64,000 nt of DNA from Endobacter medicaginis (GCF_014192375.1 NZ_JACHXV010000012.1:1-64000), one strand, 5' to 3'. Shown: positions 46,847-63,319, counted from the stretch's first letter. The notes: generated from the letters alone by a model not told the origin. Made by a program: numbers and translations.

Positions 46847-47758
46847 TCAGAACCGGTCGCGAAACCGCTCCGGCAGCCGCCACAACGCCATCGGCGCGAG
46901 ATCGAGCGCATAGCGATAGGTACCGCCGCTCCAGGCCCTGTCACTGTCGGTGATGGCGGCGGTCCAGCGGCGCAGTTCCGCATCCTCGGCATCCAGCCGA
47001 CGGGCCGGATCGCCGGGCAGCCCCGCCATGCCGCGCAGCATCGCCAGCCAGTCCGCGTCCGCCATGCGCTGGTGCGAGCCCGCCCCCGCCTCCGCCCAGG
47101 GCTGCGCGCGGGTACGGGCGAGGCGGGCCAGCCCGTCGGCCTCGTCGGCGAAGCGAAGATGGAACAGATGCAGGTCGCCGAACACCGGCGGCGCCTCGAT
47201 GCAGTGGAAGCCCGGCGCCCAAGCCACCGGCCGCCGGATCAGCACCGGCTTGCACAGCGCCGAGGAGAAGCGCAGCCAGTGGCGCTGCCGGCCGGCCGGC
47301 CGGCTCCAGTCCAGCGTCGCCTCGTCGGAGGCGCGATGGATCACCTCATAGCCATGCGCGGTGATCACCGCGGGTGCGGACGGGTCCGCGGCGAGCGCGG
47401 CCGCGTAATCCGCCAACCCCGCATGACGATCGGGATCGGCAACGACGATCTCGTCGCTGTCGGTGTACATCACCGCCGGGTAATAGCCGAGCAGCGCCGA
47501 GCACAGCGCCGAGACGAAGGCGGCGCGCCGTGTGTCGTCCTGCGGCGAGCGCGGCAGGCGGATCACGTTGACCCCCGCCCCGACCCCCGCCCGCCAGCGC
47601 GCCATCAGCACCGGATCGGAGCCATGATCGATGACGGTGCAGTTCGCGGCCCCCAGCTCGCGCACGTAATGGCGCGTCCAGAACGGCAGATGCGTGGGCT
47701 CGTCGAACACCATGGTGACCGCCGCCAGCTCCGGGCGATCCGCAGTTCTTCCCGTCAC
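46847..47758 (-). CDS. Glycosyltransferase family 2-like protein
   Basis: The roughly 303-residue protein resembles the Glyco_tranf_2_4 type. It starts LAAVTMVFDEPTHLPFWTRH, with the DxD-like metal site in YTDSDEIVVADP. Later stretches include ITAHGYEVIH and HLFHLRFADEADGL. No membrane segment. The start is uncertain: GTG 47758 has GGGGAG upstream, GTG 47803 would begin 8 nt after the preceding lipoprotein stop, and an ATG at 47854 would overlap it. It is the last gene of the SleB operon. The acceptor sugar or lipid is unknown. Confidence 0.7.
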   Translation of the reverse strand: MTGRTADRPELAAVTMVFDEPTHLPFWTRHYVRELGAANCTVIDHGSDPVLMARWRAGVGAGVNVIRLPRSPQDDTRRAAFVSALCSALLGYYPAVMYTDSDEIVVADPDRHAGLADYAAALAADPSAPAVITAHGYEVIHRASDEATLDWSRPAGRQRHWLRFSSALCKPVLIRRPVAWAPGFHCIEAPPVFGDLHLFHLRFADEADGLARLARTRAQPWAEAGAGSHQRMADADWLAMLRGMAGLPGDPARRLDAEDAELRRWTAAITDSDRAWSGGTYRYALDLAPMALWRLPERFRDRF

Positions 47759-47810
47759 GCCCGGCGCACTCCCCTGTGCCGGCGGACGGTGATCCGCCTG
47801 CACGGGGGCG

Positions 47811-48257
47811 TCAAGGCCGGGCAGACGGGCGCGCCGCCAGCACCCGTGCGTCATAGCCCGCCGGCAGCGGCGAGCGCCGCGGCTGGCGAAGGCATTCGCA
47901 CACCAGCGGCGCACAGGCGGCATCCGGCCCGCTGAGCGCGCCGGTGGTGCCGGTATAGTGCACCTCGGCCACCCGCGAGCCGGAGATCCGCAGCACCAGA
48001 TGGCAGCCGCCACCGCCGCCCAGCGACAGTGACAGATCGTCGAGAAATTTCAGCGAGATCGCAGCCCCTGTGGCGCTGTAATCGTAGGTGAACAACTGCT
48101 CCTGAGGATCGAGCCAGGCGATCCGTGCCGGGATGCCGGCACAGGCCTGCACGTCCACCGCCGACATGCCGACCAGTGCGTGGCGGGCCTGCCGCGCCTC
48201 GATCGCCGCGCAGCCCGTCAACCCGATGCAGGCGAGCAGGAGTGCCACCCACCTCAT
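47811..48257 (-). CDS. Small lipoprotein, paralogue of the one at 62717-63319
   Basis: The 148-residue protein has a lipoprotein signal (LLLACIGLTGCAA, lipobox LTGC). The mature part reads RHALVGMSAVDVQACAGIP, a hydrophobic glycine-rich core (SLSLGGGGGCHLVLRISGSR), then VAEVHYTG and GPDAACAPLVCECL. The cysteine pattern and the RHA/M-S/VD-C-GIP/GG-C/RVA-V-YTG/PDA-CA order match the lipoprotein encoded before hisB. Function unknown. Its ATG overlaps the previous stop by four bases, so it is translated with the cysteine-peptidase-like gene. Confidence 0.75.
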   Translation of the reverse strand: MRWVALLLACIGLTGCAAIEARQARHALVGMSAVDVQACAGIPARIAWLDPQEQLFTYDYSATGAAISLKFLDDLSLSLGGGGGCHLVLRISGSRVAEVHYTGTTGALSGPDAACAPLVCECLRQPRRSPLPAGYDARVLAARPSARP

Positions 48258-49039
48258 TGATGCGCCCCCACCTGGCCGAGCGCACGCAGGTCGCCGGCGA
48301 GGGTCGCGAAATCGAGATCACCAGGGCTGGTGCCGCGCGGCCCCAGCCACTCGCCCGGCGCGAACACCGCATAGGCCTCGTCGCAATAACGATCGAGAAA
48401 CGCCCAGGATGCCTTCTGCACCCCGCCCCAGGTAATGAGCGATACCTCCGCCTCGTCATAGCCGGCGACCAGCACCGCATGGCCGCCCCAGGAGCCCGGC
48501 CGATCGAGCGCATCGTCGCCCGCAACCGGTTCCCAGACCGTCTGGGTCTGGGCGCGGCGCGGCAGGTCGAGCCCGAGATAGGCCGAGCCGAACAGTTGCA
48601 CCGCCTGGCGGATCGCCTCGCGGTCACCCGCCGCAAGCCGCGCCCAGACCCCGCACTCGACCCCCTGAGGGCGCAGTCGCACCCCCTCGCGGGCGAACCA
48701 GCCCAGCACGTCGGTCTCCACCGCCCCCGCATCGGTCTCCGGCCGGCCTGGCACGTAGCCGCCGACGATGCCGTAGCAGTGCTCGACGGTGGCATCGTCC
48801 ATCACCAGCGGCGTCCCGCCGCCAAGCTGCGTGCGCTGCACGATCGCGTTGGCCAGGGCCGCGATGGTGCAGCAGCCGAGGCGGTCGTTGCAGAACATCC
48901 GCCAGCCGATGCCCGTGGCGCGGTCGAGCCGCGCAGGGGCTGGCGGCGGTGCCGCGCGCAGGTAGCGCGCCAGACGGGGGGCCGGCGTGCCCGGCGGCGG
49001 CGCCCGCCGCCCCAGGCGGCCGCGCGCGGGCGGCACCAC
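48254..49039 (-). CDS. Papain-like cysteine-peptidase-fold protein
   Basis: The 261-residue protein (if started at the GTG two bases after the preceding stop) has a proline-rich basic N-terminus. Candidate catalytic features of a papain-like fold follow: Cys in LGCCTIAALANAI (about residues 55-67), His in SWGGHAVLVAGYDEA (His187), and TWGGVQKASWAFLDRY. In the last, the usual Asn-Ser-Trp-Gly is Thr-Trp-Gly. Similar proteins occur in phage and peptidase collections, but the assignment is by motif only. No signal peptide. It overlaps the lipoprotein gene downstream by four bases. Confidence 0.6.
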   Translation of the reverse strand: MVPPARGRLGRRAPPPGTPAPRLARYLRAAPPPAPARLDRATGIGWRMFCNDRLGCCTIAALANAIVQRTQLGGGTPLVMDDATVEHCYGIVGGYVPGRPETDAGAVETDVLGWFAREGVRLRPQGVECGVWARLAAGDREAIRQAVQLFGSAYLGLDLPRRAQTQTVWEPVAGDDALDRPGSWGGHAVLVAGYDEAEVSLITWGGVQKASWAFLDRYCDEAYAVFAPGEWLGPRGTSPGDLDFATLAGDLRALGQVGAHQ

Positions 49040-49041
49040 CC

Positions 49042-49521
49042 TCAGGGTGACCCCGCCAGCGTCACCCGCATCTGCATCGGCCCGACACCGATGAAGGCAT
49101 CGAGCAACGCATCGGCGATGGCGAGCGCGGCACTCACCGGCGGCGGCAGCGTGCCGGGCGGGATGATCGCCGCCAGGGCGGCGAGTGCGGTGCGCACGTC
49201 GCGCGCCAGCGTCTGCAACCTGGCGAGATCGAGTGCGCCCACCGCGCCGGCATGCGCCGCCTGCGCGGCCAGCGGCGCCGCGAGTGCGGCGACCGCGAGC
49301 TGCGCCTCGCTCTCGAGCAGCTTCGTGCGTGTCGGATCGAGCCGGCCGGCCGCGACCAGCGTGTCCGCCTGCGCACTGAGCACCGCACATGCGGTGCGCG
49401 CGTCGCTCGCGAGCTCCGCATAGTCGAAGCTCCTGGCTCCCCCATCCGCGCAGCCGCCGAGCCCCGCCGGCAGCAGCGCGCCCATCGCCATCGCGGCGAT
49501 CCGCAGCCTTGCGCGGCTCAT
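49042..49521 (-). CDS. Alanine-rich lipoprotein of unknown function
   Basis: The 159-residue protein has a lipoprotein signal sequence (AMAMGALLPAGLGGCADGG, lipobox LGGC) and an almost entirely helical alanine/leucine-rich body (LASDARTACAVLSAQADTLV; ALDLARLQTLARDVRTALAA). The C-terminus contains DALLDAFIGVGPMQM. I do not recognise the family. Its position, one gene after a one-TM holin-sized protein and an SleB hydrolase, suggests an outer-membrane spanin-like or wall-associated role. That is an inference from context only. ATG overlaps the previous stop (ATGA). Confidence 0.65.
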   Translation of the reverse strand: MSRARLRIAAMAMGALLPAGLGGCADGGARSFDYAELASDARTACAVLSAQADTLVAAGRLDPTRTKLLESEAQLAVAALAAPLAAQAAHAGAVGALDLARLQTLARDVRTALAALAAIIPPGTLPPPVSAALAIADALLDAFIGVGPMQMRVTLAGSP

Positions 49522-49754
49522 CGTCCGCCCTCCGACATCGTCACCGGGTGCGCCGCACCCGGCTGGGCCAGATTGCGGGCGTTGAGCCAGTTGGCGCCGA
49601 TCGCGCTGAGGATGCGCCGCGGCAGCACCCAGGGCGAGCCCGACGGCGGCTGCGGCAGCATCGCATCGAGCACCGCGCACAGGCCGATCGCCGCCAGAGC
49701 AGGCACCGCCAGGCGCGCCGGCAACAGCGACAGGATATAGCTGACCGGGTCCAT
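49518..49754 (-). CDS. Holin-sized one-helix membrane protein
   Basis: The 78-residue protein begins MDPVSYILSLLPARLAVPAL, with one strong hydrophobic segment (about residues 5-32), then proline-rich SGSPWVLPRRILSAIGANWL and a polar tail. Size and topology are those of small holin-like or scaffold proteins, but one helix gives weak evidence. The start overlaps the SleB stop by one base and its stop overlaps the lipoprotein ATG, so it is strictly coupled to both. Confidence 0.6.
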   Translation of the reverse strand: MDPVSYILSLLPARLAVPALAAIGLCAVLDAMLPQPPSGSPWVLPRRILSAIGANWLNARNLAQPGAAHPVTMSEGGR

Positions 49755-50239
49755 CAATGGTGCACCTCCCGGCCGGCCTGTGTGGCGGGTGCGCTGCCCG
49801 ACACCGCCACCGGACCGCCGCCATGCACGCCGACCTGATAGAAGGCATGGCGTCCGCGGGTGCAGCGGAACCGCTCCCAGGTGGCCCAGAACGGCCGGTC
49901 CGAGCCGAGCGCGAAATAGGAATCCGCGCCGCGCACGATATCGGGCAGCATGCCGGCCTCCAGACGCTGCGCCATCAGCAGCGCGGAGCGAAAGGCCGGG
50001 TCGCGCTCGCCGACCGCGAGCATCGCATCGTGATTGGGATCTTCCTCGTTCCAGCACGAGAACTGGTGGATGCCGTGGCAGGAGGCGGTGCAGACGGAGG
50101 CGATATCGTGCCCCCACCAGCCCGGCTGAGCCACGCGCGCGGCGATGGTGTTGAGGACGGCCTGCATGCCCGCGGCACCTTCGCCACGCGCCTCGCCCCA
50201 GGCAGTACGGGCGGCCAGTTGAACGGGATCGCTCATCAT
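49754..50239 (-). CDS. SleB-type cell-wall hydrolase
   Basis: The 161-residue protein matches the Hydrolase_2/SleB domain, which cleaves peptidoglycan. LAARTAWGEARGEGAAGMQA contains the catalytic glutamate region, VLNTIAARVAQPGWWGHDIA follows, and HQFSCWNEEDPNHDAM is the family core. No signal peptide is visible, so it would need a holin-like route or act in the cytoplasmic-side wall zone. ATG at 50239 (or 50236) lies behind AGGGA. It heads a run of six leftward genes with overlaps. Divergent from the ATP-grasp operon with 227 nt between; no gene is visible there. Confidence 0.85.
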   Translation of the reverse strand: MMSDPVQLAARTAWGEARGEGAAGMQAVLNTIAARVAQPGWWGHDIASVCTASCHGIHQFSCWNEEDPNHDAMLAVGERDPAFRSALLMAQRLEAGMLPDIVRGADSYFALGSDRPFWATWERFRCTRGRHAFYQVGVHGGGPVAVSGSAPATQAGREVHH

Positions 50240-62716: not shown

Positions 62717-63319
62717 TTGACCCGTCCCAACCCGATCGTGCCGACCGTCGCAACGCTGTTTCTGGCTCTGGCGCTCGGCGCCTGCTCGGTCAAGGATTCG
62801 ATGGTCGCGCGTCATGCCCCGGCCGAGATGACCGGTCTGTCGGAGGTCGATCTTGAGAGCTGCATCGGCGTGCCTGACCAGCATGCGAGCTTCGGCAGCA
62901 CGACCGTCGACACCTGGAATTTCTCATCCGCCTCCTCGACGAGCTACACGATCCCGATCATCGGCGGGCTGGGCCAGTCGAACGGCGGCAACTGCAAGGC
63001 CACCTTCCGCATCGAGGACGGCCGCGTCGCCCGGGTGATGTATTCGGGCGAGAAGAACGCCCTGTTCGCGCCCGACGCCTATTGCGCCTCCATCGTGCGC
63101 ACCTGCACCGAGTGGCTGTATCGCCACCCGCAGCCCCGCCACCTCAAGCTGCCGGCCGAAGCGTCCAGCGTGCCGGCCGAGCGCGTGCTGCCCGGCGCAC
63201 CGCAGGCGCAGGCAGGCGCCGGCGCGGGCGAGACCATCGCCGCAGGCACCGGCGAGGCCGCGCCCGAACCCGGGCATGGCGGCAACCCCGGCTTTCCTGT
63301 AGGAACCGCGCCGAGATGA
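62717..63319 (+). CDS. Lipoprotein upstream of hisB, paralogue of 47811-48257
   Basis: The 200-residue protein starts at a TTG with GGAG nine bases upstream and has a lipoprotein signal (TVATLFLALALGACS, lipobox LGAC). The mature part RHAPAEMTGLSEVDLESCIG, then VPDQHASFG, GGLGQSNGGNCKATFRIEDG and RVARVMYSGEKNALFAPDAY has the same conserved order as 47811-48257. A longer alanine/glycine-rich tail follows. Its stop overlaps the hisB ATG by four bases, so it is translated with the his operon, an odd partner for histidine synthesis. Confidence 0.78.
   Translation: MTRPNPIVPTVATLFLALALGACSVKDSMVARHAPAEMTGLSEVDLESCIGVPDQHASFGSTTVDTWNFSSASSTSYTIPIIGGLGQSNGGNCKATFRIEDGRVARVMYSGEKNALFAPDAYCASIVRTCTEWLYRHPQPRHLKLPAEASSVPAERVLPGAPQAQAGAGAGETIAAGTGEAAPEPGHGGNPGFPVGTAPR

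Follow-up and report, generated by a model that had tools for sequence, protein, structure and literature searches.

The locus analysed here, a run of tightly spaced genes in the chromosome of Endobacter medicaginis, raises the questions of how many of these genes form a unit, where that unit came from and whether the host has a use for it. It lies in a stretch of 64,000 nucleotides, hereafter called the window, which covers most of a 72.7-kb contig. A first-pass annotation had proposed a coupled module of six genes, encoding a wall hydrolase, a one-TM protein, two lipoproteins, a papain-like protein and a glycosyltransferase. All six open reading frames are present, on the minus strand between positions 50239 and 46847, and five of them are indeed coupled through the junctions it had described, which are, in order from the hydrolase gene to the gene of lipoprotein 2, TGATG, ATGA, a 2-nt gap and ATGA. 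The GC content at codon position 3 is 0.83-0.89 in these five genes, with a host mean of 0.88, and because they follow the host codon-position pattern they can be regarded as coding sequences rather than chance frames. No sigma-70-like promoter was found upstream of the cassette with a scan that is weak for this organism.

The sixth gene (47758-46847, minus strand), which encodes a GT2-like glycosyltransferase, does not share this organization. It starts 52 nt past the end of the lipoprotein 2 gene, its product scores 24.1 bits against PF13704, under the curated cut-off of 27.5, and relatives of it are present in 38 of the 100 sampled genera of the family. Furthermore, in three other genera (G085, G070 and G055) the gene is located within an msrA-DUF2934-GT block whose order is that of the window and which adjoins a permease gene but not the cassette; G055 does carry the cassette on the same contig as this gene, at a distance of about 98 kb. 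This conserved host neighbourhood rules out the glycosyltransferase as a sixth member. The coupled module consists of five genes, and the glycosyltransferase gene is a flanking host gene that marks its boundary.

The first gene of the module (50239-49754, minus strand) encodes a SleB-type wall hydrolase of 161 aa in which no signal peptide was seen. The protein matches PF07486 (Hydrolase_2) with an E-value of 7.7e-9 (36.5 bits, cut-off 27), as well as the endolysin families PHROG 938 (4e-11) and PHROG 15649. It has kept the WGEARGE motif, which is invariant among its close relatives, and at least 560 relatives are present in IMG/VR, the best of them 59% identical. On its sequence, we assign the product as a phage endolysin of the PF07486 Hydrolase_2 type.

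The second gene (49754-49518, minus strand), TGATG-coupled to the hydrolase gene, encodes a protein of 78 aa with a single hydrophobic segment at about residues 5-23, corresponding to one predicted transmembrane (TM) helix. No Pfam, PHROG or NCBIfam family matched this protein, holin families included, and one of its relatives gave a value of 0.0096 with PHROG 8494, a family of unknown function. On the other hand, its small size, a helix number within the range of one to three, and its place next to an endolysin gene are those looked for in a holin, and its relatives keep this place, being encoded beside endolysins in both prophages and viral contigs. We therefore consider the 78-aa protein a candidate holin.

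The product of the fourth gene (49039-48254, minus strand, GTG start) is a papain-like protein of 261 aa, again with no signal peptide seen. It matches PHROG 19005, annotated as of unknown function, with an E-value of 3.8e-40 over positions 22-255 of 260, and it has no match with any Pfam family, C1 included. Its AlphaFold (AF2) model has a pLDDT of 85 and a pTM of 0.85; the best Foldseek match of the model is xylellain (3ois, E 2.6e-9), with other papain-family proteases also near, and a profile search agrees with this result (8e-6 against 3ois). According to the model, the protein has a papain fold with a Cys-His pair. It shares with xylellain and the C1 proteases the catalytic Cys and His residues as well as the Gly-x-Cys and Trp-Gly motifs. 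It differs from them in two respects besides the lack of a Pfam C1 match and of a signal peptide: the oxyanion Gln is replaced by an Asn (Asn51) that, like Cys57 and His187, is invariant in the 22 aligned sequences; the position of papain Asn175 is occupied in the window copy by an Ile (ITWG), whereas some relatives, and only some, have NSWG or NTWG. The Cys57-His187 pair is predicted to be catalytically active.

The nearest relatives of the papain-like protein are 51-53% identical to it. Relatives were detected in 38 viral contigs, in the Komagataeibacter phages phiKM1, phiKX1 and phiKX2, and in a Caudoviricetes isolate, and no plasmid matched. A collection scan with a closer alignment set, 20 diverse rows having been too variable, showed that the family also occurs far beyond the Acetobacteraceae, in MAGs labelled as Acidobacteria, Bacteroidetes, Actinobacteria, Elusimicrobia and other groups. 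A predicted lipoprotein gene lies within the two upstream same-strand genes of 12 of 36 family copies and immediately downstream of 7 of the 36, against a baseline of 5.3% of all called genes, as counted with a crude lipobox rule that misses some lipoproteins.

The third and fifth genes encode lipoproteins. Lipoprotein 1 (49521-49042, minus strand; 159 aa) is Ala-rich, has the lipobox LGGC and matched no family apart from one sub-threshold match; in an alignment with 11 relatives of phage or prophage type, the sole conserved residues are Met1 and the lipid Cys. Its C-terminal hydrophobic stretch is weak, with a mean of 1.78 in the window copy and 1.3-1.9 across the set, too weak for the protein to be called a unimolecular spanin. 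Many of the phage or prophage relatives of lipoprotein 1 (L050, L073, L079, L080, L081, L083 and L260) start with an SRRxxL run that resembles a twin-arginine motif and precedes the lipobox, which suggests Tat export of a phage lipoprotein.

Lipoprotein 2 (48257-47811, minus strand; 148 aa) has the lipobox LTGC and four conserved Cys residues in addition to the lipid Cys. In G055, G131, G180 and G142, the gene of its relative comes right after that of the papain-like protein, and relatives are also carried by the viral contigs L257 and L260; these viral copies were recovered via the hydrolase scan, lipoprotein 2 by itself having given no matches in a scan of viral sequences. Its match to the Rz-like family PHROG 1804 reaches an E-value of 0.22 only. 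A BamE/SmpA-type identity was also considered and set aside, as the structure search with its model (pLDDT 78) gave no significant match, BamE ranking 42nd with an E-value of 0.33. The family is present in 57 of 102 sampled genera. A host lipoprotein with 34% identity to lipoprotein 2 (E 9e-17) is encoded within the window itself (62717-63319, plus strand), its gene overlapping the start of hisB at 63316, and a third relative is located elsewhere in this genome (G000:C3:246195-246605).

Neither the one-TM protein nor the two lipoproteins matched a described family at a useful E-value, spanin families included, and no Rz-like inner-membrane partner for the two lipoproteins was found. Moreover, family profile searches with the four non-hydrolase proteins gave no match to known secretion or division families. 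A spanin-like or late accessory role of the two lipoproteins seems likely.

The origin of the module becomes apparent from the places where its relatives occur. In the prophage on G008:C7, genes for major head, head-closure, adaptor and DNA-ejection proteins are followed by hydrolase, TM protein, lipoprotein, a 175-aa protein and papain-like protein. The G142 prophage has baseplate wedge and tail fibre genes followed by TM protein, papain-like protein and lipoprotein 2, and the order in G033 is tail fibre, TM protein, GH108 endolysin, TM protein, lipoprotein and papain-like protein. Among the viral contigs, L257 and L260 have hydrolase, TM protein, lipoprotein 1 and lipoprotein 2 behind baseplate and tail-fibre genes that were recognized by eye, and L205 carries a Hydrolase_2 endolysin gene and two TM protein genes before the papain-like gene, which in many phages is the last or near-last late gene. 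Since this gene order is found repeatedly after virion genes, in prophages as well as in viral contigs, the unit corresponds to the tail-end or lysis segment of tailed phages. The endolysin-holin-spanin-like origin proposed in the first-pass annotation is thus upheld, and we consider it probable, at roughly 0.8, that the five genes are a lysis or tail-end cassette derived from a temperate tailed phage and orphaned in the chromosome. The same recurrence, together with the spread of papain-like relatives over the 38 viral contigs and distant phyla, makes it most improbable that we are dealing with a native, non-phage wall-remodelling operon of the Acetobacteraceae, a view to which the widespread host paralogues of lipoprotein 2, including the one beside hisB, would lend support.

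The composition of the segment varies. The five-gene set is not obligate, because at L076 the hydrolase and TM genes are present without the remaining genes; elsewhere, TM protein, lipoprotein and papain-like genes occur without the hydrolase gene. The expectation that the six genes are always together therefore fails, the glycosyltransferase gene being in any case unrelated. Just before the hydrolase gene, four phage-type loci (L257 4486-4986, L260 4532-5011, L073 6453-6785 and L076 8658-9077) have a gene, missing in the window, for a coiled-coil protein with a hydrophobic segment at the C-terminus. A remnant of this gene was considered upstream of the window hydrolase gene, but no convincing match was obtained beside it.

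With regard to the orphan state, no capsid, portal, terminase, integrase or other phage gene was recognized among the called genes of the window, as had been reported for capsid, portal and tail genes, nor in the remainder of the 72.7-kb contig. Phage genes elsewhere in the genome were sought with three families. A 5.4-kb contig (L255, G000:C48) carries capsid, protease and tyrosine recombinase genes as well as a portal gene that an internal TAA interrupts, and a 9.3-kb contig (L256, G000:C35) has a terminase match. These portal and terminase matches bear on the possibility that the cassette acts in trans, releasing a particle encoded elsewhere, such as a gene transfer agent (GTA), a tailocin or an unlinked prophage. 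Lysis genes of GTAs can indeed be unlinked from the structural cluster, as in RcGTA. However, the portal gene is interrupted and lies near an integrase gene, TerL_nuclease is absent from this genome as well as from G055, G131 and G180, and the marker GTA_TIM (PF13547) gave no matches in this genome and G055, the Caulobacter control being positive. On the absence of GTA_TIM we reject a GTA lysis locus, and the gene transfer agents that the first-pass annotation had named as one setting for such gene sets are not supported here; lysis in trans as a whole appears quite improbable.

Has the host retained the cassette for a purpose? The window genus is represented by one genome, and the values for selection come from the copies of relatives. 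In the genus that we refer to as g56 (G055, G131 and G180), three species carry all five genes, intact and identically ordered, at a single orthologous site, the downstream flank being common to all three and the upstream flank to two. The dN/dS values are 0.22-0.43 for the hydrolase (that of G055 compared over a shortened frame, the full frame being open further upstream), 0.34-0.41 for the TM protein, 0.23-0.37 for the papain-like protein and 0.18-0.31 for lipoprotein 2, and higher, 0.46-0.93, for lipoprotein 1; as these are Nei-Gojobori estimates for proteins that are 39-79% identical and partly near saturation, they are evidence of constraint, but exact rates should not be read from them. 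The dS values of the cassette genes are like those of the host genes on either side. Directly upstream, two of the species have beta-helix (PF13229) genes resembling tail spikes (L080 12568-17563; L079 36-2576), and the third has a GDSL autotransporter gene in their place. The g56 cassette thus resembles that of the window in gene content and order, and no capsid or portal gene was seen in the stretches read; it differs in its chromosomal site, in protein sequences that are about 20-40% identical to those of the window, and in the tail-spike-like genes upstream in two of the three species.

A second site, at hemH, was found in three genera (L045 6197-11912; L047 8214-14528; L046 7251-10115). 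Here the TM and papain-like genes are kept, with dN/dS values of 0.13-0.31, a lipoprotein gene is present in two of the genera, and the hydrolase gene is absent. Both flanks are common to two of the three genera. In the papain tree, in which the wrongly cut row L080 was disregarded, the copy at the third locus, L046, groups with a prophage-type copy, and repeated entry at the hemH site may have occurred. The proposal that the module is domesticated is therefore supported in relatives, where g56 and hemH show conservation of the site together with purifying selection, and this suggests, without proving it, host use there.

In the case of the window copy, the main competitor of a host function is that the cassette is a young, functionless relic: the other genes of the prophage would have been deleted, and the remaining five, on their way to being lost, would have stayed open because they are recent or by chance. 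Other copies of the family are visibly decaying, with stops in the hydrolase gene in G008:C37 and C7 and in papain-like or lipoprotein 2 matches in G189 and G168, and phage relics, with the interrupted portal gene, exist elsewhere in this genome. On the other hand, the five window genes are all open, tightly coupled and of host codon-position pattern, and equivalents persist under purifying selection in g56 and at hemH. According to published counts, degraded prophages lose their lysis genes preferentially (PMC7744054), which is a point against a retained orphan cassette. A lysis segment that is kept alone, and in relatives at fixed sites and under selection, is the opposite of this usual loss and points to host use. 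For the window copy, we regard the relic and a host function as about equally likely, each with somewhat less than an even chance.

The hemH site, where the TM, papain-like and lipoprotein genes have outlasted the hydrolase gene, would also fit a role in superinfection exclusion, in which related phages would be kept from using their receptor, or from getting their DNA into the cell, by the phage-encoded lipoproteins and the small membrane protein. Lysogenic-conversion genes are common next to integrase genes, and in phiKM1 the papain-lipoprotein pair lies away from the tail genes and adjoins the integrase gene. However, the window and g56 cassettes still include the hydrolase, no lipoprotein family of the receptor-blocking kind was detected, and there was no PADLOC family match, on which ground a defence-system reading was rejected. 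Superinfection exclusion is accordingly an unlikely reason for the retention of the cassette.

How might an orphaned lysis cassette work? In the phage, the one-TM protein would gather in the inner membrane and open it in a holin-like manner, and the signal-less hydrolase would then cross the opened membrane and cut peptidoglycan. The two lipoproteins would work at the outer membrane, as spanin-like or late accessory proteins, and the cytoplasmic papain-like enzyme would cut some protein or amide bond. In the host, low and regulated expression could affect envelope or wall turnover, in a manner like that of DLP12, and the cassette would survive. By this analogy, an envelope or wall function of the window copy is conceivable, if somewhat short of probable, and we consider such a function probable for those copies that have become fixed in other genera. 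More tentatively, and on balance doubtfully, the Acetobacteraceae may have repeatedly fixed a phage late segment, consisting of a holin-like TM protein, a lipoprotein, the PHROG 19005 papain-like enzyme and a lipoprotein, at stable sites, with the endolysin optional, a non-lytic envelope function, and the papain-like enzyme as the retained core.

Compared with the temperate phages of Acetobacteraceae (G008:C7 and G142; phiKM1, phiKX1 and phiKX2, PMC8566455), the cassette has the same genes and order that these phages have behind tail or capsid genes, with the papain-like protein and then a lipoprotein at the end. It differs in having no virion, replication or integrase genes nearby, and in lacking the coiled-coil/TM protein that often precedes their hydrolase. 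Its nearest precedent is the SRRz/Rz1 module of DLP12 in Escherichia coli K-12 (PMC7918800), also a phage lysis operon kept in the chromosome and also composed of a membrane protein, a wall hydrolase and a lipoprotein. Deletion of the DLP12 lysis module raises vesicle release (PMC7918800), and the proposed host role, wall upkeep and vesiculation, has been tested there, whereas for the window cassette we infer it only. The DLP12 module is located inside a recognizable cryptic prophage, has a different endolysin and an Rz/Rz1 spanin pair, and contains no papain-like protein. PHROG 19005, a widespread phage family that we found described only as of unknown function, can now be read, on the basis of the model, as a putative papain-fold enzyme of the late or lysis region.
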